In this document: piece by piece, positions 5,574 to 22,899 of the stretch
Numbering within the stretch: the stretch's first letter is position 1
Layout of the letters: each line of letters begins with the position of its first letter
DNA from: Algicola sp.
Lineage (GTDB): Bacteria; Pseudomonadota; Gammaproteobacteria; Enterobacterales; Alteromonadaceae
Assembly (NCBI GenBank): GCA_013216025.1
Contig: JABSOG010000002.1
Coordinates: 1-32,928, forward strand
Reading direction: 5' to 3'
Length of the DNA stretch: 32,928 bases
Translations under genes and position numbers: made by a program
Notes under the pieces: generated by a model
Databases searched by the model: none
What the model was told of the DNA's origin: nothing
What the model saw: only the letters and a program-made list of their open reading frames with translations

Positions 5574-5820
5574 TTTCGGGATCTCCATTGTGTTTCATTG
5601 ATTTGTGTTATCAATTTACCACAATATGTGTTGATACCCTATAAATCACCTTTGCAGTAAAAATAATACTCGGGAGTGTATTTGATAAATCAGAGATTTT
5701 GGAAAAATATTGAGAGAGGAAGAATCACAGACGAAAACGGTTGTTGAAGCTGTTATAAATTTAATGCAAAAACAAATCAGTTTTGGGACTGATAGCTAAA
5801 GGAGATAAACAGCAGGGGGT

Positions 5821-5934
5821 CTACATCATACCAATCAAGAATTGGCTACCCAAATACAACAAGCCTGAGTACAGACCGGTTAAGGCTGTGGTTTCTGCCA
5901 TACAGTTCATGTTTTGTTTGATTACTGCTTTCAT
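5821..5934 (-). CDS. Small hydrophobic protein, 37 aa (not in ORF track)
   Basis: A short open frame encodes MKAVIKQNMNCMAETTAL followed by a hydrophobic stretch TGLYSGLLYLGSQFLIGMM that runs to the stop, so it may be a small membrane protein. It has a good ribosome binding site (AAAGG, 9 bases before the ATG). It lies 12 bases after the stop of a 21-codon ORF on the same strand. Both possible coding strands were examined: the plus-strand reading is open and partly hydrophobic but has no credible start codon. No family was recognised. Real coding status depends on conservation or expression. Confidence 0.45.
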   Translation of the reverse strand: MKAVIKQNMNCMAETTALTGLYSGLLYLGSQFLIGMM

Positions 5935-5946
5935 TGTGATTAGCCT

Positions 5947-6012
5947 TTAATTTGTTTTGCCCGATAACTTGATGAACATTTTATCGATTTCACGCCGTTG
6001 AGGTTCTGTCAT
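5947..6012 (-). CDS. Possible 21-aa micro-ORF upstream of the small hydrophobic protein
   Basis: The frame reads MTEPQRREIDKMFIKLSGKTN and is strongly hydrophilic, in contrast to the hydrophobic product of the ORF that begins 12 bases later. It could be a leader peptide or half of a two-peptide unit. No clear ribosome binding site precedes it, so translation is uncertain. Confidence 0.25.
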   Translation of the reverse strand: MTEPQRREIDKMFIKLSGKTN

Positions 6013-6203
6013 ATCTGACAAAAACTGGCAGATTTACGACAAAATGGCGAAAATAGGGTGAAATAAAGCTTAAATTAGTTATTTAAGAAACTAAATGCAG
6101 GATTTTGTTGAACAAAGGAGGTTTCTGGCTTTGGTGGTAAATGAACAAATCTTTGGTGCGCACAGCACACCCTACTGACCGAGATTGTCATTTGGTAAAT
6201 GTA

Positions 6204-6238
6204 AAAAAGCCCCAAATCATCACAATAAATTCAGGGCC
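6204..6238 (-). terminator. Rho-independent terminator
   Basis: Read on the minus strand, a 9-bp stem (GCCCTGAAT pairing with ATTTGGGGC through two G-T pairs) with an 11-base loop is followed by TTTTTT. It lies 29 bases beyond the stop of the frameshifted tail of the small secreted-protein gene, which supports that tail as part of the original gene. Confidence 0.75.
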
Positions 6239-6266
6239 ATTTGTCTAGTAGGCAGATTTGCTTAAA

Positions 6267-6583
6267 TCAATGGCGACCTAAAACGACTTGGCCATTCTTT
6301 CTCCAGTGCGATACCGAAGTGTTATTACTGTGAGACGCAACACGACTATTCGCCTTCTGTGCTTTGGCTTTAGGCGCTACGACTACCTTGGTGACATCAT
6401 TTGTTTGATTTCGCGTTGCAAAATACTCGCTAAAGTCTTTGACTGAGCACTGTTAGCCTGTTGACCTGACTTTGAGCTAGCACTGGCATTGGCTGTAAAA
6501 ATCATCATCAGCCCTAATGTTAAAACAAAGGTTTGCGCCAAACTGACGAAAAATACGGTGTTAAAACGTTTTAAGTTGCTCAT
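6267..6583 (-). pseudogene. Small secreted protein gene, apparently frameshifted
   Basis: The ATG at 6583 has a ribosome binding site AAAGGA about 9 bases upstream and opens a 66-aa frame: a cationic start (MSNLKRFNTVFF), a long hydrophobic signal sequence (LAQTFVLTLGLMMIFTANASA) and a polar region ending QMMSPR at 6383. In a second frame the sequence stays open from about 6440 to a TGA at 6267 and encodes a lysine/alanine-rich tail (KVVVAPKAKAQKANS ... HWRKNGQVVLGRH). The terminator sits just after that second stop, not after the first. A single-base change between about 6385 and 6450 would join both parts into an exported protein of roughly 105 residues. It could be a real pseudogene, a sequencing error or a programmed shift. 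The family is not recognised. Confidence 0.55.
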
Positions 6584-6743
6584 GGGTCTAATTCCTTTGA
6601 TTACGATTGTCGCTAACTGTTTAAATAACATTAAAGTTGAGAACGAGCATATTAAAGGAGCGTTGGCGTTTTACCGAGGACAAAAAACTATAAATTTAGG
6701 ACTGTTGTTTAAAATCAATGAGTTAAAATAGAAAATGTGAAGA

Positions 6744-7835
6744 TTAGGTCTTTTGATCTAGCGCTGGCAAAATAAACTGTTCGATAATGCCCAGCGGTTG
6801 ACGCATGATTTTAAGGTTGTTGTAGTTGCTGCCGGTAAAAACCACCACCATATCTAGGCTTGGCAGCACCACAATGTACTGTCCGCCATTGCCGCCAGCG
6901 TAATATCCTTCAACAACTTGCCCACTAGTTTTGTTTTTAAACGAGCCCACCCACCATAAATACCCGTAACCATGCGCCTGCCCGGCCCATCTTTTACTCA
7001 GTGGATAAATTGCCGAGGTGCTTTTTTCGACCCACTTGGCAGGCACGACTTGTTTGCCATGCCAATTACCTTTGTTTAAATACAGTTGGCCAAACATCGC
7101 CATTTGGCGTGAGGTCAATTTAAACGGTGATTTGGTGATTAACCCCATGGGTTTGAACAGGTCATCTTGATAATTTAGTTTGCTGGGGTCGCCCGCCGCC
7201 ACATTAATTACTGAGCGCAATACGGCCGGAATTGCATCGGTATAAAGCATCTTTTCGCCGGGTTTGTAGGCCATTGGACGGTCTAGCAGCCATTTTATCG
7301 CTTGTGTGGGTTCGCGACCGTTGAACATCAAGCTGCCACAGCGGGTTTTGGCGCGACCAATAAAACAATTCCAGCCTGCGCGCATGGTCAATAAATCATG
7401 CAGGGTAATGTTAGCTTTACGCTCATCCCAGTGCTTATAATTTGCATAATATGGGGTAAAGTAGCTGTGGAGTTTGTCGTTTACGCTGCCAACTTGTTGT
7501 TTGCCTATGCTAATGCCGACCAGCGCTGACAAAAGGCTTTTACCCGCCGATGCCAAGGCGTGGGGCGTGCGTTTTTTGCCTTTGTTATAGTATTTTTCGA
7601 ACACCAGTTGGCCATGACGGACCACCAGCATACTGTCGACCCGCTGATATTTACCTCGGCGGATCAGGCTGTGCGCCCGGCGCAGTGGTTTGTCGTCTAA
7701 TCCCACGGCAGCGGTATCACTTTGTGGCCATTGCCACTGCTCGGTTTCACCTTTATGCTCACCATCATTGGTCCCGCCCTTTGCGTGAGCCGCAAACAGG
7801 GAGAGCAACAACAAAAGCGCTAAATATCTTTTCAT
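6744..7835 (-). CDS. Serine hydrolase of the beta-lactamase / class C esterase fold
   Basis: The 363-aa protein has a signal peptide (MKRYLALLLLLSLFAAHAKG) and so acts in the periplasm or outside. The catalytic Ser-x-x-Lys motif is SAGK in HALASAGKSLLSALVGI (residues about 94-110). The second motif (Y-x-N in class C enzymes) appears as YTD in KMLYTDAIPAVL. Further family hallmarks are LTMRAGW, HGYGYLWWVG and a C-terminal GGNGGQYIVVLPSLDMVVVFTG in place of the KTG/HxG element. These enzymes are esterases, D-amino peptidases or penicillin-recognising proteins; the substrate cannot be assigned. The ATG at 7835 is used because the track's extra four codons start at a TTG and precede the signal peptide. 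Confidence 0.88.
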   Translation of the reverse strand: MKRYLALLLLLSLFAAHAKGGTNDGEHKGETEQWQWPQSDTAAVGLDDKPLRRAHSLIRRGKYQRVDSMLVVRHGQLVFEKYYNKGKKRTPHALASAGKSLLSALVGISIGKQQVGSVNDKLHSYFTPYYANYKHWDERKANITLHDLLTMRAGWNCFIGRAKTRCGSLMFNGREPTQAIKWLLDRPMAYKPGEKMLYTDAIPAVLRSVINVAAGDPSKLNYQDDLFKPMGLITKSPFKLTSRQMAMFGQLYLNKGNWHGKQVVPAKWVEKSTSAIYPLSKRWAGQAHGYGYLWWVGSFKNKTSGQVVEGYYAGGNGGQYIVVLPSLDMVVVFTGSNYNNLKIMRQPLGIIEQFILPALDQKT

Positions 7836-8019
7836 GGCAGGTGCCAAATCAGTTCAACAATGTGGTTGTTTTACCAGACTTCGGCCAAAACACCAATAAG
7901 AGTGGGTTAAAAGGCCCATTTGACGGGATAACCGCGAAATTGGCTGTACACCAAAGCCGCCAAAAATGTTATTCTTCGCGCTTCTCCAGTAGTAGATTTA
8001 GAAGATCCTAGTTATTAAT

Positions 8020-9126
8020 ATGCAGCAGTTAAAATCGTTATTGTGTTTTTCAGGCAGTGAGCAATCCAGCCGCTTCGGCGTCATTCAGTCAGCCGTTTAT
8101 CTTTGTTTTTTTCTTTTAAGTTTACTGCTAGCCAGTGTCCCCGCATTGTTTTTTGTGGTTGTGCTTGTGCTCGCGGTATTTGCCACCGCCAGCAGTGTAC
8201 GGCGGGTGCGCGATGCCGGATTAGCGCCAATGTTGAGCGCCATTCCGATTGGTGTTTATGTCGTCTGTGCCACGTTAATCAGCAGTATCGGTGGCAGTAG
8301 TTACTTTTTACTGATATTGGCGGTGCTGAGTACCGTTGGCCTGATGCTTTGCCCCAGCCGCCAACGTCATGATTATATTCAGGGTTACCATGGTCCGGTC
8401 GATTTATCGTCTCATCAAGCTAAAAAAGACACGTCCAACACCTATGCCAACCGCATCGAACCCACCTTTGTTGCAAGCCATGGGACCAGCGATCACAGTG
8501 ACACGCACAACGGTCAAATTGACGAACATTTTAGTGGCCAAACAGATTTCGATGAAACCACCAGCCAAAATAACGATTGGATTGAACCGTTAAAAAGCTG
8601 GGTGCTGGCCAATCAAAAAGTGGCGATTGCGGCGTTTGGTTTTATGGCTTTATTGTCGCTGGTGCTAGCGACTCTGCCTATGTGGTCGTCAAATCCAGTA
8701 GTAGAAGAGCAAACCGTTGCCACCCCAGAGCCAGTGGTTGCCGCGCAAAAAGTCAGGCTGCACAAACTCGAAATGCCCAACAATTATTATTTGATGACAG
8801 ATGAAAATCAGGGTTTGCTTATCCACTGGCCAGCTTATGCAGAAAATGACAATCCGGCTTTATGGTCGATATTAACGGCCAAAGGCGAGCCAAGCTGCGA
8901 AAACCTGCGCTTTAGCGACAACACTCGCTTTCGCACCAATTTGGTAGAAATTGAAAACGCTGGAGATCATTACGCCAGCTTTTCGCCGCTAGATACCGAA
9001 GCACTGGTCAAGGCCATCGCCGCCAAGAGCAACTTCTCACTGTGTGGTTACGAATTTTCGTTAAAAGGCAGTACGGCGGCGATCAATTCTTCACCGATAT
9101 TTTCGGTTTATCTTGAATCACTGTAA
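8020..9126 (+). CDS. DUF805-like membrane protein with extra C-terminal domain
   Basis: This 368-aa protein has an N-terminal membrane part with four hydrophobic segments (about residues 25-125), including the arginine/aspartate signature SSVRRVRDAGLAPMLSAIP that resembles the RLHD-type loop of DUF805 proteins. A polar linker (about 130-195) is followed by another membrane helix (VAIAAFGFMALLSLVLATLPMW, about 200-222) and a soluble C-terminal domain with two cysteines (SCENL and SLCGY) that could form a disulphide outside the cytoplasm. The stop overlaps the start of the tandem lipoyl gene (TAATG), so the two products are coupled and probably work together at the membrane. The function is unknown. 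Confidence 0.7.
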   Translation: MQQLKSLLCFSGSEQSSRFGVIQSAVYLCFFLLSLLLASVPALFFVVVLVLAVFATASSVRRVRDAGLAPMLSAIPIGVYVVCATLISSIGGSSYFLLILAVLSTVGLMLCPSRQRHDYIQGYHGPVDLSSHQAKKDTSNTYANRIEPTFVASHGTSDHSDTHNGQIDEHFSGQTDFDETTSQNNDWIEPLKSWVLANQKVAIAAFGFMALLSLVLATLPMWSSNPVVEEQTVATPEPVVAAQKVRLHKLEMPNNYYLMTDENQGLLIHWPAYAENDNPALWSILTAKGEPSCENLRFSDNTRFRTNLVEIENAGDHYASFSPLDTEALVKAIAAKSNFSLCGYEFSLKGSTAAINSSPIFSVYLESL

Positions 9127-9860
9127 TGAGCATATCCGCCCTAGTGCCCATCCTGCCCAGAGAGACCCGTCACGCAACGCTTGAAGCAATTTACGTCAGC
9201 CAAGGTCAATGGGTAGCAAGAGACGAGTGTCTATTCGACATAGAAACCGACAAGGTCGTGCTTGAGATAATGGCCGAACAAAGCGGGATCATCGATGAGA
9301 TTTTGGTGAATATTGGTGACGCTGTTGAAGCTGAACAGCTCATTTTGACCCTAAGAGCGCCCACCGAGCAAGAATTACAAGACATGCCCGCAGCCAAAGC
9401 CGATGCCGAGGAAAAAGCCAGACCACAACCCGCCCCCCAAATTATTCATGACATCCAATGTCGCCCTGAGGTTGTCGAAATAAATGTGCCGATATTACCC
9501 GAAAGTGTTCAAGATGCGACAATTTGCCAACTCAACGTTGTAAAAGGTCAATGGGTAGAGCAAGACGATGTTGTTTTTGAGGTTGAAACCGACAAAGTAA
9601 TACTTGAAGTGATTGCGCCTTATTCTGGGGTGATTTACGACATTAAAATCGACCAAGGTGAAGCGGTTGTTGCCCAGCAGTTGGTCATGACAATGAAAGA
9701 AAGACTGTCGGACGCGCCAAATCCAATGCCAGCAGATTCGCCTGAGCCAAAACCAAGCAGACCAACATCAGACGAACCGCCTCAAGGCTCACCCAACGTA
9801 TTCTACGGCTTGATGATATTTGTCGTTTTGCTAATTTTAGCCGGGATGTTTTTCACTTAG
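9126..9860 (+). CDS. Tail-anchored protein with two lipoyl domains
   Basis: The 244-aa protein contains two E2-type lipoyl domains. Domain 1 (residues about 4-78) carries FDIETDKVVLEI with K43 as the expected lipoylation site; domain 2 (about 117-192) carries FEVETDKVILEV with K157. Domain 2 begins VPILPESVQDATI, very close to the start of SucB (2-oxoglutarate dehydrogenase E2) lipoyl domains. No E1/E3-binding domain or acyltransferase domain follows; after a Pro-rich linker the protein ends in a single membrane helix (FYGLMIFVVLLILAGMFFT). It is therefore a membrane-tethered lipoyl carrier rather than a dehydrogenase subunit. It is coupled by a 1-base overlap to the DUF805-like gene. The partner enzymes are unknown. 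Confidence 0.85.
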   Translation: MSISALVPILPRETRHATLEAIYVSQGQWVARDECLFDIETDKVVLEIMAEQSGIIDEILVNIGDAVEAEQLILTLRAPTEQELQDMPAAKADAEEKARPQPAPQIIHDIQCRPEVVEINVPILPESVQDATICQLNVVKGQWVEQDDVVFEVETDKVILEVIAPYSGVIYDIKIDQGEAVVAQQLVMTMKERLSDAPNPMPADSPEPKPSRPTSDEPPQGSPNVFYGLMIFVVLLILAGMFFT

Positions 9861-9919: not shown

Positions 9920-11899
9920 CTACCAAACCCCCTGCCAAACAGCATTACCATGAATATAATAGACATCATTGCCGTGAATAATCGAGCGGTCTTCACGTCC
10001 ATTAATAAAGCTGTAGTCTTCGGGTAGGTTATCAACTTCCAAGGCATTTTTATCGACCAATTCGGCGCCGTTATCAGTGATATTCACCTCCAACATTTGC
10101 AGACTATTGCCGTGCTGCCAATAACCTTCGGCGTTGATATACCAACGACTAATTGGTATGGCAAAACGGTGTTCATTGTCAGTCATCTTTAAATAAGTCA
10201 GCGCATGATGGTCCCACTCTACCGGGGTGTAAGCGTCAGGATAAACCACGGTGCCTAGCTCCAGCGGATTGGCCGGGTCTGACACATCAAACAGCGATAC
10301 CTTAGCCCCTTCTTCAATCGGACTGGTATCAATGGTATTGCCCTGACCATTACCCGGAAAATTACCCGGGTCGACTTGCTGTCCCACGCCCAACAACAAG
10401 TTATCGCCAATTGGATGCAAATAAGACGAGAACCCCGGTACTTCAAGCTCACCGGCAATTTTAGGGTCGGTCGGATCCGACAAATCCAGAATATATAATG
10501 GGTCCATACGTTGATAAGTCACAATATACGCCTTGTCTTCAAAGTATCGAACCGCGTAAATATCTTCTTGCGGCTTGCCGATGGGATCAGGGTGTAAGTC
10601 ATTGGGCAACTGGCTGATAATATTGAGCTTGTTGTCTTGTGGTTGAGCATTAAGTACATACAACTGATGCTTGATATCTCCCGCCGAAACGCTAGAGGTG
10701 ACCACTCTCAAGGTATTCTGATATTCGCTAAGGCGAAAACTGGGGTTGCTCCAACCAAAGTAACCATCGACTGTGCCCGCGCCCACGTAATCTAACGAAT
10801 TGCCAGGCCCACTGCCAAGATCAAACTTGTGGATCACCGACTGCTCAAGAATGCTGGTTGCCATCAGGTAAATCGCATTGCTTGAGGCATAAAGCGCCTG
10901 CGTCACTGCGTTGATGCATACCGATTCAATGCTGTCTGGCTGACTCAAATCGATGGTGGTCAAGGTCACAATACTGTCGTAACCATCGTAAGAACCTGCA
11001 TCTTCAGGGATAAAACAGTTTTGCGGATCAACCAAATTTTGCACGCTGTTGTCGGCTTTGGTCAGCTTGGGCATTAGGCTATTGACGTCAACCGCACGAA
11101 TAGCATCGTAATTGGCTTGTTTGTCTGCATCGGTGAAAGCGCCGTAATTGATGCCCTCAACGTTGGGCGAAAAGCTACTGACCACATACACCTTGTTATC
11201 GATTCGGCGGCTCGACAGTAAATAACCGTCAAACGAAATAGAGTCGTCCATAGTGGCCTGTTCTGGTGTGGCCACGTCATAAATCGCCACTTCGACCTTT
11301 TGATCATACGGATGCCATACATCAATCGGCATGATGTTATACCAGTTTGCCGCGCTACCAACCACGGTCAACTTGTCGCTGTGCAGATACAAACCAGACA
11401 TCGTATTTAACGTCCCTTCAGGCATCAACACTGCAACTTGTTCCATCGAAGTGTCGGGTTGACGTTTCATGATTTTGACATAATCGCGTTGCATGGCATT
11501 GTCGTCGGCCAACGGATCGTAATAACTGCGAGCGGCCATATACAGGTAATCGCCATCGTATTTGATGCGGTCGGCTTCATCCACGCCCGCCTCTTGCACA
11601 TTGGTGCTCGAATATCCTGCAGCGGAGTCACCGGCCTGCGTGGTTGAAGGTGTGGCAGTACAATTTCCACATTCTGTGAATTGCGAAATACTCGAAGTGT
11701 ACAACCCGTTTTTAAGGTGATTGCCAAAAGAAGCGGCGCTGGATGATTTTAACGGCCCTAACGACACCTTGGCCGAATTGACTTCAACCAATTGGCGGTT
11801 GACTTCGTCATCATCACCGCCGCCTCCACTGCCACAGGCAGACAATAGCAAGGTTGAAGAAAGTGCCAACAACGGCAATTTAAAACGTGGGTAATTCAT
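9920..11899 (-). CDS. Beta-propeller domain lipoprotein (PF09826-like)
   Basis: This is a 659-aa exported lipoprotein. The signal peptide ends in the lipobox LLSAC followed by a flexible GSGGGGDDD spacer. The conserved family phrase TNVQEAGVDEADRIKYDGDYLYM (residues about 98-120) is characteristic of the secreted beta-propeller domain family. Later blades repeat patterns such as IYDVATPEQ, LDLSDPTDPKIAGELEVPG and LFDVSDPANPLELG. Position +2 after the lipid-modified cysteine is Gly, which favours outer-membrane sorting under the usual rule. The family has no settled biochemical function; a sensing or binding role is possible. A promoter-like pair and an AAGGAT ribosome binding site lie upstream. 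The gene is divergent from the FG-GAP/Rhs genes. Confidence 0.88.
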   Translation of the reverse strand: MNYPRFKLPLLALSSTLLLSACGSGGGGDDDEVNRQLVEVNSAKVSLGPLKSSSAASFGNHLKNGLYTSSISQFTECGNCTATPSTTQAGDSAAGYSSTNVQEAGVDEADRIKYDGDYLYMAARSYYDPLADDNAMQRDYVKIMKRQPDTSMEQVAVLMPEGTLNTMSGLYLHSDKLTVVGSAANWYNIMPIDVWHPYDQKVEVAIYDVATPEQATMDDSISFDGYLLSSRRIDNKVYVVSSFSPNVEGINYGAFTDADKQANYDAIRAVDVNSLMPKLTKADNSVQNLVDPQNCFIPEDAGSYDGYDSIVTLTTIDLSQPDSIESVCINAVTQALYASSNAIYLMATSILEQSVIHKFDLGSGPGNSLDYVGAGTVDGYFGWSNPSFRLSEYQNTLRVVTSSVSAGDIKHQLYVLNAQPQDNKLNIISQLPNDLHPDPIGKPQEDIYAVRYFEDKAYIVTYQRMDPLYILDLSDPTDPKIAGELEVPGFSSYLHPIGDNLLLGVGQQVDPGNFPGNGQGNTIDTSPIEEGAKVSLFDVSDPANPLELGTVVYPDAYTPVEWDHHALTYLKMTDNEHRFAIPISRWYINAEGYWQHGNSLQMLEVNITDNGAELVDKNALEVDNLPEDYSFINGREDRSIIHGNDVYYIHGNAVWQGVW

Positions 11900-11962: not shown

Positions 11963-12130
11963 CAGTTGTAGCACTTTGATAAGAAATGTAATTATGTGTA
12001 ATTGCGAGCACCAAGCCAACAGTTCAACCAATCAACGACAAAGGTTTTTCGAGCCACTTGACAACCCAAATTAGACACATTAATATAGCCGCCAATTTTT
12101 GCCCAAACACAGTTGTTAAATGGAATAATA

Positions 12131-14272
12131 ATGAAACACGCCACACTGGCTATCGCCCTAGCACTATGCACAACAAATGCCTTATCTGAGCCACGTACCC
12201 ACTGGTCAACCGAAACCCACACCCCTCATTTTGGCAACGTAAACGAAAATACCCAAAAAGATCTACTACTGCAAACCAAAACCGCCGACAACAGCAGCCT
12301 GTTGATACTTGATGACACCACTCAAAGCGAGGTGCCAATTGAGCTGGCTAACGCAAAGCTGGCCTTGAGCGACGTAAACGGTGATGGTTTTGCCGATCTC
12401 TTTGTCGTTTACCCAGCGCAACAAATGGCGGTAACGTACTTGGGTAATGTGGATGGTTTTCAAAGCGTGGCTACTCACCAATACAACGTCGATACATTGA
12501 CTTGGCTTGATGATACGAGTGATGTTGAGTTATTAAGTGGTGATTTCAACGGCGACGGTCGCCAAGATGTCCTAGTCGTTGCTGAACAAAAACACTATAT
12601 GATGCACGCGGATGTTGACGGGCAATTGAGCGTTGTTCAAACCATTAATGGCAATGCCAAATGGGGTAGTAAGAAATCAGAAAAGTGGATAGTAAAAGAT
12701 TTTGATGGTGATGGCCGAGACGACATTTTTGCCCAATCTAAGAAAAAAAGCCAACAACACACCATCACCTACGCCAACAAAAAAGGCTATCTGAAAAATA
12801 AAAATAGCCATAAAATCACGGCCAAGATCACCGGTGTCGATTGGCATGGCGACGACTACAGCATTGGCGCAGGCAATATCGATGATGACAAGGCCGTAGA
12901 TTTGGTGCGGTTCAACAATGCCAGTGGTGGTATTGATGAAAATGGTATCATTGTACAGGGCAAAGCCGCTGCAACATCTAACCACAGTTTTGCACCGGGT
13001 AAAAACAAAGCCAGCACCACCCAGTCATTGGTAGGTGCGCCTGCCACCCCAACCAATTATCCTGGCAACGGCGGCAACAGTTATAAGCCATACAACATCA
13101 CCTATTCAATCCCTTTTGATAGCGTATCAGGCGCAACCTATTACGAATTGTACGAGAGTTCAACCGATTCTAATTACGCCCTCAAGTACAGTGGCAGTGG
13201 CACATCAGCCAGTTTTGTTCACTACAACTTTGGGTATCAATATTATAAATACAAAGCTTGTAATAGCGCAGGTTGCAGTGGGTTGAGCCCTTGGCGGCGG
13301 ATTTATGTTTATACCTCAGCAACAGCCAAAACTCCTGAGGTATCCCCGCTAAACGTCGCCACCAATGTTAACTACACCGTGTCGTGGAGACCCGCAGGTG
13401 GCGCCGTTGATGGTGCCGTTTATACCCTTTATGAAAGCCAAAATGGCGCATTTGAGACGACCGTTTACAGCGTCACGCGACAAACTTGGCAAGAAACCCT
13501 TTACTCGTTTACTACATCAAGGTCGGTTGGTGGTTCTTATCGATACCGAGTGACCGTTTGTAACCCACAAGTGTCGTGTACCGGCTCATCCTCGGTTTAT
13601 CAAACCGTGATAGCCCCCAACAGTGCGCCCATCGCGAACGCCGACAGTATCATGTTGACTCAAGGCAGCACCGTTTATATTAACGTGGTTGGCAACGACT
13701 GGGATGCCGAAGGCCAAGCACTCACGCCGGTATTGTACAATTTACCGGCGCATGGCAGCACCGCCATCGTTAACAATCATGTACGTTATACGCCCTACGG
13801 AAATTATTACGGCACCGACAGCTTCACCTACTGGGCGCAAGATACACAAGGACTGTATTCAGGCTTAGCGCAGGTCAACCTGACCATAAACGCGGCCATA
13901 TTAACCCCCGCCAAACCCACCATTACAGTTGTTAACGCAGCAACTGGTCAATTGACCCTAAGCTGGCCAGCACAAGCCAATGCCAGCAGGTACACCATAC
14001 AAGAGGCCTTTTGTTATGACAATTGTAACAACCTAACCAACACCGACTGGCAAACGCTGACGCCTGATACGTCGGCACTTGCCGTCAGCCTAACGGCCAA
14101 ACGCAGCGGCATATGGGCTTATCGACTATCAGCCTGTACCATCACCAACATTTGCAGCGGCTACAGCGACATGGCGACAACCGAAATTAAACGAAGAAGT
14201 GTGGCATTTATCCACTCAGACCTGCTGGGTACCCCAGTAGCACAATCAGATAAAGATGGAGACGTACTGTAA
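12131..14272 (+). CDS. Exported FG-GAP/VCBS-repeat protein with Ig-like domains and half an Rhs core motif
   Basis: The 713-aa protein starts MKHATLAIALALCTTNALS, a signal peptide, with GGAATA just upstream; the track's longer start is a TTG. FG-GAP/VCBS-type repeats with calcium-loop motifs follow: DVNGDGFADLFVV, DFNGDGRQDVLVV, DFDGDGRDDIFAQ. The middle holds fibronectin-III-like segments with paired cysteines (ATYYELYESS, GAVYTLYESQ). A cadherin-like Ig domain (APIANADSIMLTQGSTVYIN ... YYGTDSFTYWAQD) comes next, then another Fn3-like domain. It ends FIHSDLLGTPVAQSDKDGDVL, the phrase that normally opens the Rhs core region. The stop overlaps the start of the large Rhs gene (TAATG), so they form an operon. 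The likely role is as an adhesive or accessory partner of the Rhs protein. Confidence 0.85.
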   Translation: MKHATLAIALALCTTNALSEPRTHWSTETHTPHFGNVNENTQKDLLLQTKTADNSSLLILDDTTQSEVPIELANAKLALSDVNGDGFADLFVVYPAQQMAVTYLGNVDGFQSVATHQYNVDTLTWLDDTSDVELLSGDFNGDGRQDVLVVAEQKHYMMHADVDGQLSVVQTINGNAKWGSKKSEKWIVKDFDGDGRDDIFAQSKKKSQQHTITYANKKGYLKNKNSHKITAKITGVDWHGDDYSIGAGNIDDDKAVDLVRFNNASGGIDENGIIVQGKAAATSNHSFAPGKNKASTTQSLVGAPATPTNYPGNGGNSYKPYNITYSIPFDSVSGATYYELYESSTDSNYALKYSGSGTSASFVHYNFGYQYYKYKACNSAGCSGLSPWRRIYVYTSATAKTPEVSPLNVATNVNYTVSWRPAGGAVDGAVYTLYESQNGAFETTVYSVTRQTWQETLYSFTTSRSVGGSYRYRVTVCNPQVSCTGSSSVYQTVIAPNSAPIANADSIMLTQGSTVYINVVGNDWDAEGQALTPVLYNLPAHGSTAIVNNHVRYTPYGNYYGTDSFTYWAQDTQGLYSGLAQVNLTINAAILTPAKPTITVVNAATGQLTLSWPAQANASRYTIQEAFCYDNCNNLTNTDWQTLTPDTSALAVSLTAKRSGIWAYRLSACTITNICSGYSDMATTEIKRRSVAFIHSDLLGTPVAQSDKDGDVL

Positions 14273-17200
14273 TGACTGGATTAATCACCAAAACAATGAA
14301 ACCCCTGCACCTCATTGCAGCAATGGCACTGGCCTTTTACAGCCAAAATGTCTTGGCAGGCTCAGCTGAAGAAAGTACTTCGCTGGCCTATGAAGAAGTC
14401 CTGTCACGCAATGAAGCCAACGATTCCGTTACCGCAGAAACCACAGAATTACTGGGCGAGCGAATCGATTTAAATTCAGGCTCAGTCAGTTTCAGCCATA
14501 CCGATGTTTCTTTGCCGGGCAACAGTCAATTGCCCGTGACATTATCGCGGATCCACAAAAGTAAAGCGTACACCAACTTTAATCGCACCGACTTTGCCGA
14601 TTGGGCTTTAGACATACCCTATATTCAAACCACAACATTGGTTGGTGGTGGTTCTGGCAGCATTGGTACCGCCGGCCCTTGGGGTGAAAGCCCAAGAAGA
14701 GAGTGCAGTGGCGAACTTGAACAAGGCGAAGTGAACATTGATGGCAACCCTTACAACAGCACTGACTTTTATAATGGTGACACCATTCACATTCCCGGGC
14801 AGATAAGCGAGAAACTGCTAGATAAAGCCGACAGCCAGTTTCGTAAACGCACCAAATCTAACTGGGGCGTAAAATGTGAAGCCAATGCCGACAATACTGG
14901 CGAAATCTTCAAAGTCCATTCACCTGAGGGTACCGTTTATACCTTTTCTCGCCGCTTTAACGTGCTCGACGGTGTGGTTGTAAATAATTTTGGCAAAGAG
15001 GCTAGCGTAATCGGCAACAACCCAAAAGACGATACCGTTGCATCGGCAACCACGAGCGATCCAGACACACTATCGGTGATCCAGTACGAAGCTGCCAACC
15101 GTTACCATAAGTACATGTTTGTGACTTTGGTCGAAGACCGATTTGGCAATACCGTCACCTATGACTACACCACCGGCGGTTTGTTAAAAAGCATTACAGG
15201 TAGTGACGGTCGTAAAATTGAACTCACCCGATTCACTGAACAAGAGAAACCCGGTTTTACCAAGCTAATCAAAACAATGACCACCAATGGCCGTCAATGG
15301 ACTTACAACTACGCCTATGGCAACAAAGCATTGCAAAGCGTTGAATTACCTAATGGCCGCAGCTGGCAATATAACTTGTTGCCGCTGTTGAATGTTGCTA
15401 AACCAGGTATCGCTGAACAAAACTGTCAGCCTGAGGCTGATACAGCCACATTCAGCATCACCCACCCCAATGGTTTGACGGGTGAGTTTACCGTCAGAAG
15501 AACGTTGCATGGCAATGCCAATGTCACATGGGCGGGTTACCGCGAAAACTGGGGTGCGTATACGTTAAAACATTACACCAAACCCTGCTCGACACCCATG
15601 TCGATTATCAGTAAAAAGCTGACGGCGACCGGTATGGACACCCTAAACTGGGCTTACACTTACTCGCAAAATCAAGGCTTTTACGGTGACATCAGTGCGC
15701 TGCCCACAGGCGGCTCTCCAAGCCCGGCACCAAGTAATGCCGAGCTACCGACTGCCCCAATTACCTTACCAAGCAACATCAACACCACAGATTACAAAAG
15801 TACCACAGTGACTACCCCAGATGGTGCCAAAACCATTTATTACCACAACCGTGATTTTCTCTCGGCAGTGGATGGCTCTTTGGTTGCCACCCAGTATTTT
15901 GATATTGGTGGCACCAAGCTCAAAACCACGCAAGTAACCTTGGTACAAAATCCTACTCACATTGGTGATACAGGTCTGTCATACAGCAATATCAAACCGA
16001 TGGAATACCGGTTGAACAAGACCAAAAGCACCACAAAGCTGCATTATGCCAGTGGTGCAACAGATGAATATATCACCGAGTTTAGTGATTTCAATACCTA
16101 TGGCGTAGCAAAAACAACCCATGGCTATCACAAATACAATGGAGCTGCTGCCGCTGGGCATCGCTACACCAAACAGGCTTTTGACCATGACACCACGGCC
16201 TGGATTCTTAACAAACCAACGACAGCGCAGGTCAGTGCCAGTGCAACCGGACATACCACGGTGAACGAAACCACCTATTATGCCAAAGACCATGCCATGT
16301 ATCCGTTCATGCCTTATGAAGAAAAAGTCCATGGCGTATGGCAAAAGCGGTTTGTTGAATATCACACCCAAGGCGAAAAGTGCATAGCCGATGTGGTTAC
16401 GACAACGCAAGCAGAGTGTCACGGTAATATCAGCAAGGTTGAATTCAACGCCAAGTTAAAAAATGCCAACGGCACCGCTGCAGCTGACAATCGTTATGTC
16501 AGCTACGCCAGTTACAAACGTGGCAAGCCACAAACCGTGACAGTCGCCAAGCGTTACAGTGCCACAGCAACCATGTCGGCAAACACCTTAGTAGATGATA
16601 ATGGCTGGGTAAGCTGGACCACTGATTTTGATGGCACCAAAGTTAATTTTGGTTACGATGCACTGGGCAGACGCACCAGCGTTAACCCAACAGATGCAAC
16701 AGTAGCCGATACAGTAATAAGTTATTCATACATAGGCACAGCGCCCAACGACCAACCTGTGCAGACAATTTCACGTTGTACTGCAACAACCCAAACGGTT
16801 GGTGGGGTTGTTTCAGACATCTGCGTTGCAAGCTCTGAATTACTGACAACCAAAACAACGCTAGATGGTTTGTTGCGTTCATTAAAAACCGAAACCACTG
16901 ATGTTGCCCGTAATTTTACGGTTTACCAAAACAGCCAATTCAATGCATACAACAGTCCGACTTTTCAGTCTTATGTGGCCGGCACTCCCGGTAACAACGC
17001 GGGTACCACGACACTTTATGACGGTTTGCAGCGTGCAAAATCGGCGAGTGTAACCGATGGCGGTTCACAAACAACCACCTACTTGTCTGGCAACAAAATC
17101 AAAGCCAGTGACTTTAACACCAATGAAACCACCACGACTTACTTGGCGTATGGTTCACCAAGTTATGATAATGCAACAACCATTGCTTCACCCGAGGGCG

Positions 17201-19224
17201 TAACAACTTCAATTGCTTACAACCTTTACGGCGCTCAAACCTCAGTGACCCAATCAGGCACCCACAAAGGCGCAGCTATCGATAACACCCAATATATGGC
17301 GTATGACAGCCAACAGCGGTTGTGTAAAGTCAAGCGAACAGATGTGGGCCAAACAGTGTATGGCTACACTACTGGCGGCGAAATGGCATGGATGGCACAA
17401 GGAACCAGTGGTGGAATCAACACTGATTGTACAAACGATGCGGTAGCGGCAGACAAAGTCAGTTATACCTACGGCAATGGCGGTGCAAAACACACGGTCA
17501 GCTTTGGTGATGGTACGGCTTCGGTGACCAGTACACTTAACAATAACGGTGATTTGGTGACCTTGACTGCGGGCAGTGTGACCCAAAGTTACCAGTACAA
17601 TTTGGCCAGAGGCCTTGAATTAGAGACGTTAAACGTTGACGGCAAGTCATTAACACTCGATTACGCTTACAACACGCTCGGTCATCTGTCGAGCCTGACC
17701 TATCCAGATGCCATGGTCGGTAAAGTTGACTTTATGCCCAACGCCTTTGGTCAAGCAACCCAAGCCATCGCCACCAATGGCATGACTTACGCCCAAATGG
17801 GTGTATATCATCCAACAGGCATGTTGCAAAGCTTTACATACGGCAATGGTCTGGTTCATACAACCGAGTTGAATACCCGTAATCAACCGAAAAAGATCAG
17901 TGATGTTAAAGGCTCAATCATACCGATGAGCTTGAGTTATACCTATGATTACCAAAGTAATATCACCTCGATTACAGACAACGTCAACAGTGCTTTCAGT
18001 CTTACGCAATTAACATACGATGGGTTGGATAGACTGACCGCTACCACCGGTGGTAGCGGTATAGGTAGCAGTACGCTTGATTATGATTCGCTGGGTAACA
18101 TCACCCAATACACCAATAAAGGTGCATCACTGAGCTACACTTACGATACGACATCAAACCGCCTAACAGATGTCAGCGACAGTGTTGGCAGCGTAAGCCG
18201 TGATTTCAACAACGGTTATGATGCCAGAGGCAACGTGACTAACAATGGTGAGCGCGGTTTTAACTACAATCTGGCCAACCAAATGGTGCTGTCGGGCAGT
18301 AATACTTACCTATATGACGGCTTTAATCGCCGGGTGAAAACAAAAGACAGCAAAGGCACCAAATACAGTATGTACAGCCAGTCTGGTAAATTACTGTATA
18401 GAGAAACCCAAGACGGCCCTATCAGCTATATCTTTATGGGCGGCAAAATGGTCGCCAAAGATGGTTACCTGCCACCGGCAAAAAGCGGCGACATGCATTA
18501 CAAACCCTTTGGCGATAGTATCGAATCGGCAGTGGATGCCGTGGGTTATACCGGTCATAAGTTTGATAAAGACTTGGGTTTGAGTTATATGCAGGCCCGG
18601 TATTATGACCCGGTGATAGGGCGGTTTATGAGTAATGATCCGGTTGGGTTTAGGGATGTGCATAGCTATAATCGTTATACCTATGCCAATAACAATCCGT
18701 ATAAATATGTTGATCCTGATGGAGAAACTGCTGTTTCGGCAAACTCTGCAAATAATTCACGATTACTGGTCTACATTAACCACAGAGCGACTGCCACCTA
18801 CGAATTTAATTCCAATGGTCAATTGGGTCGAAGTTCGATTGCTTCTCAGGTGGTTAAAATTGGTACTTCTTGGGATTTTACAGCAAAGATTGATTTGGCC
18901 ATTAGTAGTCCTCATACGATGACAATGGATATTGCCCAGACATTCATAGACAGCGCTGGTAATGTACAAAACATTGATTCAGTAGCGGGAGGAGGTGTAA
19001 CTCAAGGCAACGCCAACACTCCGGGAAATACGAATATAATCATCTCAGGTAATATTGTTAATGGGTCTCATCCAGATACCATTCTGACCCATGAAATAGT
19101 AGGCCATGCTCTTCCGATGATGGGACATTCAGATACTGGCAACGCGGTTGATAATACAAACAAGGTCAGGGCAGAGATGGGCGAAAGCCTACGTCCAGCA
19201 GACCCAAATCATGTTGAGAAATAA
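14272..19224 (+). CDS. Rhs/YD-repeat polymorphic toxin with metallopeptidase-like tip
   Basis: This 1650-aa protein begins with a signal peptide (core MKPLHLIAAMALAFYSQNVLAG; the ATG at 14296 is an alternative start), so it is Sec-exported, unlike cytoplasmic T6SS Rhs effectors. After LLGERIDLNSGSVSFSHTDV come long YD-repeat stretches (FGYDALGRRTS, YTYDYQSNITSIT, LTYDGLDRLTA, LDYDSLGNIT) that build the Rhs shell. The core ends YMQARYYDPVIGRFMSNDP ... NNNPYKYVDPDG near residue 1484. The remaining 167 residues are a variable toxin tip containing TILTHEIVGHALPMMGH, a zinc metallopeptidase HExxH signature, then NAVDNTNKVRAEMGE, which may hold the third ligand. The usual HTDxLG motif is missing from the core and instead ends the upstream protein. 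A candidate immunity gene begins 2 bases after the stop. Confidence 0.92.
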   Translation: MTGLITKTMKPLHLIAAMALAFYSQNVLAGSAEESTSLAYEEVLSRNEANDSVTAETTELLGERIDLNSGSVSFSHTDVSLPGNSQLPVTLSRIHKSKAYTNFNRTDFADWALDIPYIQTTTLVGGGSGSIGTAGPWGESPRRECSGELEQGEVNIDGNPYNSTDFYNGDTIHIPGQISEKLLDKADSQFRKRTKSNWGVKCEANADNTGEIFKVHSPEGTVYTFSRRFNVLDGVVVNNFGKEASVIGNNPKDDTVASATTSDPDTLSVIQYEAANRYHKYMFVTLVEDRFGNTVTYDYTTGGLLKSITGSDGRKIELTRFTEQEKPGFTKLIKTMTTNGRQWTYNYAYGNKALQSVELPNGRSWQYNLLPLLNVAKPGIAEQNCQPEADTATFSITHPNGLTGEFTVRRTLHGNANVTWAGYRENWGAYTLKHYTKPCSTPMSIISKKLTATGMDTLNWAYTYSQNQGFYGDISALPTGGSPSPAPSNAELPTAPITLPSNINTTDYKSTTVTTPDGAKTIYYHNRDFLSAVDGSLVATQYFDIGGTKLKTTQVTLVQNPTHIGDTGLSYSNIKPMEYRLNKTKSTTKLHYASGATDEYITEFSDFNTYGVAKTTHGYHKYNGAAAAGHRYTKQAFDHDTTAWILNKPTTAQVSASATGHTTVNETTYYAKDHAMYPFMPYEEKVHGVWQKRFVEYHTQGEKCIADVVTTTQAECHGNISKVEFNAKLKNANGTAAADNRYVSYASYKRGKPQTVTVAKRYSATATMSANTLVDDNGWVSWTTDFDGTKVNFGYDALGRRTSVNPTDATVADTVISYSYIGTAPNDQPVQTISRCTATTQTVGGVVSDICVASSELLTTKTTLDGLLRSLKTETTDVARNFTVYQNSQFNAYNSPTFQSYVAGTPGNNAGTTTLYDGLQRAKSASVTDGGSQTTTYLSGNKIKASDFNTNETTTTYLAYGSPSYDNATTIASPEGVTTSIAYNLYGAQTSVTQSGTHKGAAIDNTQYMAYDSQQRLCKVKRTDVGQTVYGYTTGGEMAWMAQGTSGGINTDCTNDAVAADKVSYTYGNGGAKHTVSFGDGTASVTSTLNNNGDLVTLTAGSVTQSYQYNLARGLELETLNVDGKSLTLDYAYNTLGHLSSLTYPDAMVGKVDFMPNAFGQATQAIATNGMTYAQMGVYHPTGMLQSFTYGNGLVHTTELNTRNQPKKISDVKGSIIPMSLSYTYDYQSNITSITDNVNSAFSLTQLTYDGLDRLTATTGGSGIGSSTLDYDSLGNITQYTNKGASLSYTYDTTSNRLTDVSDSVGSVSRDFNNGYDARGNVTNNGERGFNYNLANQMVLSGSNTYLYDGFNRRVKTKDSKGTKYSMYSQSGKLLYRETQDGPISYIFMGGKMVAKDGYLPPAKSGDMHYKPFGDSIESAVDAVGYTGHKFDKDLGLSYMQARYYDPVIGRFMSNDPVGFRDVHSYNRYTYANNNPYKYVDPDGETAVSANSANNSRLLVYINHRATATYEFNSNGQLGRSSIASQVVKIGTSWDFTAKIDLAISSPHTMTMDIAQTFIDSAGNVQNIDSVAGGGVTQGNANTPGNTNIIISGNIVNGSHPDTILTHEIVGHALPMMGHSDTGNAVDNTNKVRAEMGESLRPADPNHVEK
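18724..19224 (+). other. Variable C-terminal toxin tip of the Rhs protein (HExxH)
   Basis: This segment begins directly after the DPDG that closes the Rhs core and spans 166 residues. A beta-rich region (RLLVYINHRATATYEFNSNG) precedes the HEIVGH motif. In polymorphic toxins everything beyond this seam is exchangeable between strains. The predicted activity is zinc-dependent proteolysis; the assignment rests on the HExxH motif and its position. Confidence 0.7.
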
Positions 19225-20336: not shown

Positions 20337-21607
20337 GGGTCAGGTTATTAATCCAACCACCAAAAAAGATACAAAACGCTAACAGGGGCCGCTCTGGACT
20401 TCTACAAGTTTTTTAATAATCTCTTGTATTTGACTACCAAGTTGAGGTTCCCGTTGCTTCCTCGTGCGTACTTCATGGGTCATACGACCGACAGAACAAT
20501 AATGACCAAGGTTAAAAACTTCGGCAATCTCTGCTTGATTACCCCCGGTTAATTCTTGACATAGATACAAGGCAACTTTTCTCGGCAGGTTTTCTTCTAC
20601 CCTGCCATGCTCACCGAAAAGGATGTCTTGTCGCTCGACTTGGTAAAAGTCTGCTACAGCTACAATTACGCTGTCTATTGTCAAATTGGGCGTTATAGCG
20701 CAGCATCGTTTTTCAATTTTTAACTGTGGCATCAAATCGTCATACACCCAACTTTTAAACACTTCAGAACCAAATACCGCACCAATCTTGCCGCTTTTGT
20801 GAAACTTCACTGTTTCCTCATCATTGCCCTGCTTAACAAATTCTCGGTATGAGGTAGTCAGTTCGACAGTTGTACCAAGAAGCTGCCTTGTTAAACTCAT
20901 GTCCAACCAATCAAACGACTCATGCTGACCCACGTAATTAGGATAACTCGACCAGATGTAGTTTTCCAGACGCTCAACCAGTGGTGTTTTTGTTTCAATT
21001 GGGTTTCGGTGAATATACCGTGAGACTTGAAGAAAGTACGCATCATGGCTAACAATAATTGGCTTGTAGCGGCCTCGAAACAGTGGGCCGTCTGTTCGCT
21101 TTAACCGGTTATAGCGCTGCGTATATACCCCGTCAATATGCCGCATTACACGACTTAAATTAGCCAGTGGCGTCTGGATCAGCAGGTGGTAATGGTTACC
21201 CATCAAACAATAGGCATGAACAATGCTGCCAAATCGGCTGCAAGCCTCACCTAGCGTTTCTAAAAAAGCATGATAATAATCATCGTGATGGAAAATAAAC
21301 TGGTGGCCTCTGCCCCGGTTCATTACATGGTAAATGGCATTTTCATATTCGATGCGTAGTGGTCTGGGCATTTAACTATCCTTGTAGATTTCATTTCATC
21401 CTTCTATCTCCCGATTTAGACTGTCATTAACAACGTGGAAGATTGCTATATCTGTAAGCGTAGGTTACCGTCACCCAACTTGTAAAGTGCTATTGGGCTT
21501 AGTTAACCCCCTTGCGGTTTTTGCTTGATTAATAGGAGATTATCACAGGATTTTTAGGTTTTAAGCAAAAGGACCTACTTTGGTTGTTGAGATCATAACC
21601 TGACCCC
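20337..21607 (-). mobile_element. RAYT transposable element 1
   Basis: A 1.27-kb unit is bounded by a perfect 12-bp inverted repeat (GGGTCAGGTTAT at 20337-20348, ATAACCTGACCC at 21595-21606) and carries one transposase gene on the minus strand. The inverted ends continue imperfectly inward (TTAATCCAACCACC against TGATCTCAACAACC). It interrupts the displaced Rhs tip. Some 210 bases between the gene start and the right end hold no gene. Confidence 0.7.
20379..21371 (-). CDS. REP-associated tyrosine transposase (RAYT, Y1/HUH)
   Basis: This 330-aa protein starts MPRPLRIEYENAIYHVMNRGRG, the standard start of this family. The HUH metal-binding motif is HYH in MGNHYHLLIQTP. The catalytic tyrosine is expected in SRYIHRNPIE, after the DGPLFRGRYKP signature. 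A C-terminal helix-turn-helix region (ARKVALYL-like: PRKVALYLCQEL ... QAEIAEVFNLGHYCSVGRMTHEV) resembles the DnaA C-terminal DNA-binding domain, as in the long RAYT class. The enzyme should cut and join single-stranded DNA at hairpin ends and move itself or REP-like repeats. The reading frame is intact. The last residues, including the stop, lie in a region duplicated at 21625. Confidence 0.92.
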   Translation of the reverse strand: MPRPLRIEYENAIYHVMNRGRGHQFIFHHDDYYHAFLETLGEACSRFGSIVHAYCLMGNHYHLLIQTPLANLSRVMRHIDGVYTQRYNRLKRTDGPLFRGRYKPIIVSHDAYFLQVSRYIHRNPIETKTPLVERLENYIWSSYPNYVGQHESFDWLDMSLTRQLLGTTVELTTSYREFVKQGNDEETVKFHKSGKIGAVFGSEVFKSWVYDDLMPQLKIEKRCCAITPNLTIDSVIVAVADFYQVERQDILFGEHGRVEENLPRKVALYLCQELTGGNQAEIAEVFNLGHYCSVGRMTHEVRTRKQREPQLGSQIQEIIKKLVEVQSGPC

Positions 21608-21865: not shown

Positions 21866-22899
21866 GGGGTCAAGTTGCTTGCTTCACAATACTTTCAATA
21901 CTAAGCTTTACTCCATGCCAAGACCCCCAAGAATTGAATATGAACACGCCTTTTATCATGTGATGAATCGTGGGAGAGACAGATGTACTATTTTCCATGA
22001 CGAAACATACTTTCAAGCATTTTTAGATACACTTGGTGAAGCCTGTCAACGATTTGATTGTGTCATACATGCATACTGTCTCTTAAGTAACCATTATCAC
22101 CTGCTGATTGAAACACCAAAAGCAAACCTTAGCCGGGTAATGCGGCATGTCAACGGCGTCTACACCCAAAGATATAACCGACTGAGCAGAGCTGACGGAC
22201 CACTGTTTCGCGGACGATTCAAGTCTATTTTGGTTGACCAAGACAGCTACCTTTTACAATTGTCGAGGTATATCCACCGCAACCCGGTTGAAATGAAGAA
22301 GCCGCTGGTGAGTGAATTGGCTGATTACAGGTGGTCAAGTTACCCGACCTATATTGGTTTGGTTGAACCTGTGTCGTGGCTAGAGCGAGATAAAACCTAT
22401 GCTATGTTGGGTCACACGGTGCAATTTGAAGGTTATGCCAATTATGTCAGGGCTGGGGTTGATGAACAAACCGCAGCGTTTTATCACAAGGGGAATATGG
22501 CCAGCCTTATCGGCGATAAAGCGTTTAGACAATGGGTCTATGAAGAACTGTTACCCGAATTGGCAGCTGAAGACAAGAGCAAAGTGATACAGCCAGATTT
22601 AACTATAGACCAAGTGATAGCCAGCGTTGCCGATGACTATAAAGTCAGCGTGGAGGAGATCACCAGACTAATCAAGGGACCACAAAAAGAAAATGAAGCA
22701 AGAAAACTGGCGATGTATTTATGCCAGCAATTGGCAATGGCGAAACTGGCAGACATTGCTACGGCATTTCAATTGGGGCATGTAGGGTCTGTTAGTTTTA
22801 TTACCCACCAAATTCGAAAACGGGCAAAAGAGGACGCGCGGCTCAGGCAACAAATAGAACGATTGATCAAGAGTATTGTGAAGCAAGCAACTTGACCCC
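21866..22899 (+). mobile_element. RAYT transposable element 2 with perfect 28-bp inverted repeats
   Basis: The ends are exact 28-bp inverted repeats (21866-21893 and 22872-22899), starting GGGGTCAAGTTGCTTGCTTC. A-runs and T-runs flank both ends and extend the symmetry. The right inverted repeat contains the last codons and stop of the transposase. The outer GGGGTCAAGT is shared with the 222-bp element at 19811-20032. Confidence 0.85.
21915..22895 (+). CDS. REP-associated tyrosine transposase (RAYT, Y1/HUH)
   Basis: The ATG at 21915 (MPRPPRIEYEHAFYHVMNRGRD) matches the family start; the track's longer form begins at a TTG inside the inverted repeat. The protein is 326 aa. It shows HYH in LSNHYHLLIETP, DGPLFRGRFKS, and SRYIHRNPVE with the probable catalytic tyrosine. 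The C-terminal DNA-binding region (ARKLAMYLCQQL ... LADIATAFQLGHVGSVSFITHQI) is DnaA-C-like. It is a diverged paralogue of the transposase at 20379-21371, clearly alike over the full length but far from identical. The reading frame is intact, and its stop TGA lies in the CTTGACCCC end of the element. Confidence 0.93.
   Translation: MPRPPRIEYEHAFYHVMNRGRDRCTIFHDETYFQAFLDTLGEACQRFDCVIHAYCLLSNHYHLLIETPKANLSRVMRHVNGVYTQRYNRLSRADGPLFRGRFKSILVDQDSYLLQLSRYIHRNPVEMKKPLVSELADYRWSSYPTYIGLVEPVSWLERDKTYAMLGHTVQFEGYANYVRAGVDEQTAAFYHKGNMASLIGDKAFRQWVYEELLPELAAEDKSKVIQPDLTIDQVIASVADDYKVSVEEITRLIKGPQKENEARKLAMYLCQQLAMAKLADIATAFQLGHVGSVSFITHQIRKRAKEDARLRQQIERLIKSIVKQAT

Follow-up and report, generated by a model that had tools for sequence, protein, structure and literature searches.

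To our knowledge, the clients of lipoic acid are a few soluble complexes and, as found recently, the sulfur pathway of LbpA. The ORF at positions 9126-9860 of the window (the whole 32,928-nucleotide stretch of DNA analysed here, from the marine bacterium Algicola sp.) encodes a protein in which two lipoyl domains are followed by a C-terminal membrane helix, which raises the question of whether it is a lipoyl carrier of its own kind, an accessory of 2-oxoglutarate dehydrogenase, a docking scaffold, or a remnant of a sucB gene. As argued below from profiles, hydropathy and conservation, the gene very probably encodes a tail-anchored lipoyl carrier.

Domain organization and conservation of the two-gene unit

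The ORF runs from ATG to TAG with no internal stop codons, and the opposite (minus) strand is stop-rich. The features of this gene and of the gene preceding it are as follows.

8020-9126 (+): upstream partner gene, 368 aa, uncharacterized family; about four N-terminal membrane helices, a linker, a fifth helix at about aa 200-222, and a C-terminal domain (helix count and topology by inspection only)
9124-9128 (+): TAATG, the one-base stop/start overlap of the two genes, identical in the sister genome
9126-9860 (+): tail-anchored tandem lipoyl protein, 244 aa (ORF, Pfam and NCBIfam profiles, orthologue at 71% identity)
9126-9353 (+): lipoyl domain 1 (LD1), aa 1-76, whose loop has diverged to PRETRHAT; 87% identity with the orthologue and a dN/dS of 0.14
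9252-9254 (+): K43 codon, predicted lipoylation site of LD1 by motif (ETDK at aa 40-43)
9354-9467 (+): linker 1, aa 77-114, Ala/Pro/Glu-rich in sequence
9468-9695 (+): lipoyl domain 2 (LD2), aa 115-190, keeping the SucB-like PESVxDAT loop, with Trp replaced by Leu and His by Asn
9594-9596 (+): K157 codon, predicted lipoylation site of LD2 by motif (ETDK at aa 154-157)
9696-9791 (+): linker 2, aa 191-222, a tether Pro/Ser-rich in sequence
9792-9854 (+): C-terminal transmembrane helix, aa 223-243, the tail anchor (hydropathy and structure model)

The Pfam family Biotin_lipoyl matched two stretches of the protein (E=1.5e-27). Among the NCBIfam profiles, PRK05704 (SucB) matched with E=4.5e-38 over the lipoyl positions only, scoring 132 bits against a cut-off of 449, and TIGR01347 scored 125 bits against a cut-off of 379 and covered profile positions 1-99. 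All Pfam and NCBIfam matches were of the lipoyl type: they included HlyD_3, which was above its Pfam cut-off, and neither an E3-binding domain, a C-terminal catalytic domain nor GCV_H was found among the families of the two collections. The MKM biotinylation motif of the BCCP type is absent, both sites reading ETDKV. The nearest solved chains are 7b9k (the multi-lipoyl region of E. coli-type PDH E2) and 1PMR (the E. coli E2o lipoyl domain), the latter of which was matched by LD2 (aa 117-191) at 4e-12. The best hydropathy window, residues 225-243, has a mean Kyte-Doolittle value of 2.71 and ends one residue before the C-terminus, and a structure model built from a two-sequence input (mean pLDDT 36) is confident solely for the helix at 223-243. 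These results bear out the sequence-only reading, which had described an enzyme-free protein with two SucB-like lipoyl domains, their ETDK lysines intact, and a membrane helix at the C-terminus.

Both genes of the unit are also carried by the second genome of the genus (G001; contig CALKGI010000067.1 of an uncultured Alteromonadaceae MAG). In a search of genome contigs with the lipoyl pair, this sister MAG was the sole match, and a search of genome contigs with the upstream protein gave no match. The lipoyl orthologue (L002/L061/L139) consists of 267 aa, shares 71% identity with the window protein, and reads ETEK in LD1. Between the two genomes, the dN/dS of the lipoyl gene (Nei-Gojobori) is about 0.25 overall, 0.14 for LD1 and 0.24 for LD2, and that of the upstream gene is 0.14; the 22 helix codons show a dN/dS of about 1 with hydrophobicity retained (2.71 in the window and 2.85 in the sister MAG). 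The maintenance of the unit in the sister MAG and this dN/dS pattern indicate that selection acts on the lipoyl gene, which is therefore no fragment in decay.

The sequence-only reading had also coupled the lipoyl protein to a DUF805-like membrane protein. The coupling is tight within the genus, where TAATG is present in both genomes, but does not hold as a general rule. Members of the upstream family were found in 85 of 299 sampled genomes of the host's family, and at 28 loci from other genera no upstream-family gene has an adjoining lipoyl ORF in the roughly 1.5 kb read to either side, contig permitting. Pairing beyond the genus was therefore rejected, and because the upstream family occurs elsewhere without a lipoyl neighbour, the coupling is regarded as a genus-level arrangement. 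The proposed identity is weak as well: DUF805 (PF05656) did not match the window upstream protein and matched only one of 15 relatives, weakly (E=0.0025). Searching the PDB with a profile of this upstream family returned chance matches only. Residue C9 and the Cys pair C293/C342 are near-invariant among its aligned members.

Several other genes around the unit were recorded. Directly downstream of the unit, G001 carries genes for an FHA protein and a Ser/Thr kinase; both are absent from the window, and the pair, seen in G001 only, was rejected as a conserved neighbour. A 659-aa Beta_propel (PF09826) gene (window 9920-11899, minus strand) is found downstream of the lipoyl unit in both genomes of the genus, with the FHA, kinase and other genes intervening in G001. 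At 12113-19224 (+), the gene for a 719-aa FG-GAP/Ig-repeat protein with a weak TcdB_midN match overlaps that for a 1650-aa RHS-repeat protein, forming an RHS/polymorphic-toxin-like pair. Two Y1 (IS200-like) transposase genes, each encoding a DnaA-type helix-turn-helix, are located on opposite strands at 20379-21371 (-) and 21879-22895 (+).

Predicted tail-anchored lipoyl proteins in other genomes and their gene neighbourhoods

Genomes were screened for lipoyl ORFs too short to encode E2. In total, 24 complete proteins were identified in 23 genomes, a number that is a lower bound on their spread; each combines one, two or three lipoyl domains with a linker, which varies, and a helix at the C-terminus. 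Their distribution is scattered among Alteromonas-type bacteria, covering six genera of one family and one genome elsewhere in the order (G054, the only such genome in the order sample outside the family). The genes occur in 11 of 61 genomes of one genus, 4 of 17 of another, 2 of 4 of a third, and both genomes of the window's genus; the family-wide listing comprises matches of at least about 89 bits, so the frequency in the family is likewise a lower bound. The proteins are of two kinds.

Single-domain tail-anchored proteins, 134-211 aa: G005, G002, G287, G277, G152, G244, G304, G624, G605, G619, G623, G611 and G299; a degenerate copy in G111; and, from a different family of the order, G054
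Two- or three-domain tail-anchored proteins: the window genus, G086, G120, G621, G602, G591 and G595 (two adjacent genes in G595)

No such protein was left in the class sample after the removal of sucB genes cut by contig ends; the short lipoyl ORFs of G346, G409 and G382 were rejected as true sucB genes cut at contig ends beside sucA. Matches in plasmids and phages proved to be either conventional E2 proteins or fragments of that kind that carry no annotation, and a 'biotin/lipoyl-containing protein' of Phaeobacter was rejected because it sits within an E1/E2/E3 operon. All complete non-E2 lipoyl ORFs of <550 aa in these loci encode a C-terminal helix except four, which are soluble. In 22 proteins the best hydropathy window ends no more than eight residues from the C-terminus, with mean Kyte-Doolittle values of 2.29-2.94 in 21 and 1.75 in one; two further tail-anchored proteins also have a C-terminal helix.

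Loss of the lysines in most homologues, the outcome that the sequence-only reading had named as refuting it, was not observed: the lipoyl lysine is retained in 30 of the 32 tail-anchored domains and in all four soluble relatives. Lipoylation is nevertheless not retained in every copy, as judged from two loci. At L152:5610-7632 (+), two adjacent genes that follow a DUF3686 ATPase gene each encode two lipoyl domains and a C-terminal helix, and the lysine has been lost in the second domain of each; in the tail-anchored homologue of G111 (L173:5984-6445, plus strand), the degenerate turn RIGKVDHEI keeps the lysine and has lost the ETD context. A separate type of fusion was seen at L133 (G064:C10), where the product of a 997-aa ORF (5580-8573, minus strand) has an N-terminal DUF4062 and ends in a SucB-like lipoyl domain of 75 residues with an intact ETDKVVLEV; the 670-aa ORF upstream is SLOG-like by eye, which suggests a defence-type locus.

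In a survey of the gene neighbours of homologues, suggested with the sequence-only reading, the upstream membrane-protein gene recurred in both genomes of the window's genus; other genera have different neighbours, namely a symporter and a zinc ribbon, a histidine kinase-like protein and DUF7691, or a DUF3686 ATPase. At seven loci (L126, L127, L128 and L153-L156), the order of a sodium symporter (SNF) gene, a single-domain tail-anchored lipoyl gene, and a zf_Tbcl zinc-ribbon gene is kept, and at L149-L151 a histidine kinase-like gene is located near the lipoyl gene. The tandem tail-anchored genes at L129:9387-10211 and L130:9243-10055 lie amid genes that resemble a type III secretion region by eye. 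Neither hdr-like genes nor a dedicated lipoate ligase gene was found among the neighbours of the window gene and its relatives.

The four soluble stand-alone lipoyl domains (L146, L147, L148 and L158; 63-117 aa, reading LEKAVLE or FDKVVLE) are encoded 28-39 bases after the gene for a DUF3686 giant ATPase, which is usually preceded by genes resembling those for YqiJ and flotillin by eye. In one genus, DUF3686 ATPase loci are present in 8 of 9 genomes with tail-anchored genes and in 0 of 7 without them, a count that ignores kinship. The window genome also has a DUF3686 locus, on a contig ending inside the ATPase gene, and the preceding genes are YqiJ- and flotillin-like by eye. Nothing relevant to DUF3686 was found in the open-access literature. 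The flotillin-type membrane loci, where this soluble sister group lies beside the DUF3686 ATPase, offer a further lead to function.

Relation to SucB and rival explanations

In a tree of 77 lipoyl domains, from which other dehydrogenase domains and the divergent L152 were left out, the tail-anchored and soluble stand-alone domains were split from those of SucB with a support of 99/96 and in 200 of 200 bootstraps. In the full 133-row tree, where long dehydrogenase branches interfere, the same split was unresolved (20/79). LD1 and LD2 of the window paired together in the latter tree (92/58), suggesting that they may have arisen by duplication within the lineage. A Trp present in 81 of 81 SucB domains is found in none of the 32 tail-anchored domains, all of which have I, L or V instead; position 188, A or G in SucB, is M, L, V or I in all 32, and V151 of SucB has mostly become F or C. 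The PESVAD-type loop reads PESVxDAT in LD2 and has been rebuilt as PRETRHAT in LD1. The tail-anchored group has kept the lipoylation turn and has lost the Trp and much of the E1-facing surface of SucB. Because SucB-specific residues are lost on that side, acyl loading by SucA appears less likely, above all for LD1. This argument is correlative, covers a domain of just 76 residues, and draws on contact data mostly from E2p studies; E1o may still accept LD2 as a substrate, given that the SucB loop is largely preserved there.

These data bear on several other explanations. The protein could dock 2-oxoglutarate dehydrogenase at the membrane, its domains acting as extra E2o arms that SucA charges with succinyl and the SucB core unloads, by which succinyl would be transferred, or the complex brought, to the membrane. 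SucB is the best profile match, the ETDKVVLE core is that of SucB, and the window LD2 retains PESVxDAT; however, the Trp invariant in SucB is missing from every tail-anchored domain, the LD1 loop has been rebuilt, the tail-anchored domains are not nested among SucB domains, and the protein lacks an E3-binding domain with which E1 or E3 could be held, so that we regard docking as unlikely. A binding or regulatory scaffold is possible, if somewhat improbable. Here the lipoyl fold, lipoylated or not, would be a membrane docking module that recruits or senses enzymes, for example the upstream membrane protein or signalling proteins encoded nearby. The histidine kinase-like gene at L149-L151, the FHA and Ser/Thr kinase genes of the sister genome, and the DUF3686 ATPases fit this role, as does the loss of the lysine or its context in the L152 second domains and in L173, but a pure scaffold has no need of the lysine kept in nearly all domains, and the FHA and kinase genes are absent from the window.

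The remaining two explanations fare worse. A decaying sucB fragment or an assembly accident without function might be suspected from the sporadic distribution and from the source genome, a fragmented 9.2-Mb assembly of 1387 contigs. A recent sucB duplication or fragment is rejected by the 77-domain tree together with purifying selection, and the selection and synteny tests contradict decay: the unit stands in a second MAG with a dN/dS of 0.25 and TAATG kept, the locus is conserved in several genomes of another genus, and the clade lies apart from SucB. This explanation is scarcely credible. In E. coli-type bacteria, LipB and LipA act directly on each domain, leaving no need for a relay, and the present domains are E2-like and not GcvH-like; a lipoyl reservoir or relay that stores octanoyl or lipoyl groups or passes them to other apoproteins is thus highly improbable. 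An enzyme-free lipoyl relay of this kind is nonetheless known, that of GcvH in Bacillus subtilis (PMC6067878).

Proposed role and comparison with known systems

The reading that we favour, possible rather than probable as a whole, is that of a membrane-tethered, cytoplasm-facing lipoyl arm cycled mainly by lipoamide dehydrogenase for a common partner. The helix would anchor the protein in the inner membrane and leave its lipoyl domains on the cytoplasmic side, given that there is no signal sequence and that the helix lies at the very end. The lysines would be modified by the normal LipB/LipA route of the cell; LipA was above its cut-off in a profile search of both genus genomes, and LipB is assumed. 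According to NMR work reviewed in PMC6270654, E1 recognizes the beta1-beta2 loop and the lysine turn, E3 interacts without domain specificity, and lipoylation depends above all on where the lysine sits in its turn. From these recognition data and the residue pattern, we infer that the family is still lipoylated and open to lipoamide dehydrogenase and is poorly or not charged by SucA. The arms would then be reduced and oxidized mainly by soluble lipoamide dehydrogenase (E3), unselective among lipoyl domains, and at the membrane surface the protein would offer a partner a dithiol (or acceptor) arm that can be renewed. Since gene neighbours differ among genera, this partner is probably a common, separately encoded housekeeping component of the cell; in the window's genus, one candidate for the client is the upstream membrane protein, which is co-translated with the carrier. 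Such an arm could deliver thiol or acyl chemistry to the membrane, as the sequence-only reading had hypothesized.

A more elaborate version is a two-arm membrane relay, in which the E1 of a 2-oxoacid dehydrogenase would charge the inner arm, from which electrons or acyl groups would travel to the outer arm and then to a membrane target. In two tandem lineages examined closely, the window genus and L129/L130, a SucB-like PESV loop is retained by the domain nearer the membrane and not by the outer one. We consider this relay very unlikely; if it were true, thiol or acyl chemistry at the membrane would be fed by a 2-oxoacid, with neither NADH nor CoA involved. If the lipoyl carriers of this family are membrane-tethered, as favoured above, and have kept the modified lysine while losing the enzyme and part of the surface that E1 recognizes, lipoic acid would gain a new location in the cell and probably another function as well.

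Lipoyl carriers and tail anchors are each known, and their combination without enzyme domains is apparently undescribed: no named family for it was present among the Pfam and NCBIfam results, and no membrane- or tail-anchored lipoyl protein without enzyme domains was found in the open-access literature, to which the search was confined. ElaB is a bacterial tail-anchored membrane protein (PMC6794478, PMC6389858) that likewise has a single helix at the extreme C-terminus and no N-terminal signal, but no example of this protein type with lipoyl domains was found in the same literature. LbpA, the lipoyl carrier of the sulfur-oxidizing Hdr-like pathway, serves no dehydrogenase complex (PMC6067878) and illustrates that stand-alone lipoyl carriers can have roles outside such complexes; it differs in being GcvH-like and single-domain and in its linkage to hdr genes and a dedicated ligase, features that the window protein does not share. 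GcvH is also a stand-alone lipoyl carrier but belongs to another family, the window protein having no GCV_H match. HlyD and other membrane fusion proteins share a membrane-linked biotin/lipoyl-like fold, but the HlyD domains, which belong to periplasmic adaptors anchored at the N-terminus, consist of split halves and lack the lysine, whereas the domains of the window protein are contiguous and lysine-bearing and its anchor is C-terminal. SucB (E2o) is the closest in sequence, sharing the lipoyl fold, the ETDKVVLE turn, and about 44% mean identity (50 and 47% between the two window domains and the SucB domain of the same genome), and many SucB proteins of this family also carry two lipoyl domains. 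The window protein departs from SucB in having no E3-binding or catalytic domain and in having a C-terminal membrane helix, and the tail-anchored domains form a separate clade in which the invariant Trp and several near-invariant residues have been replaced.
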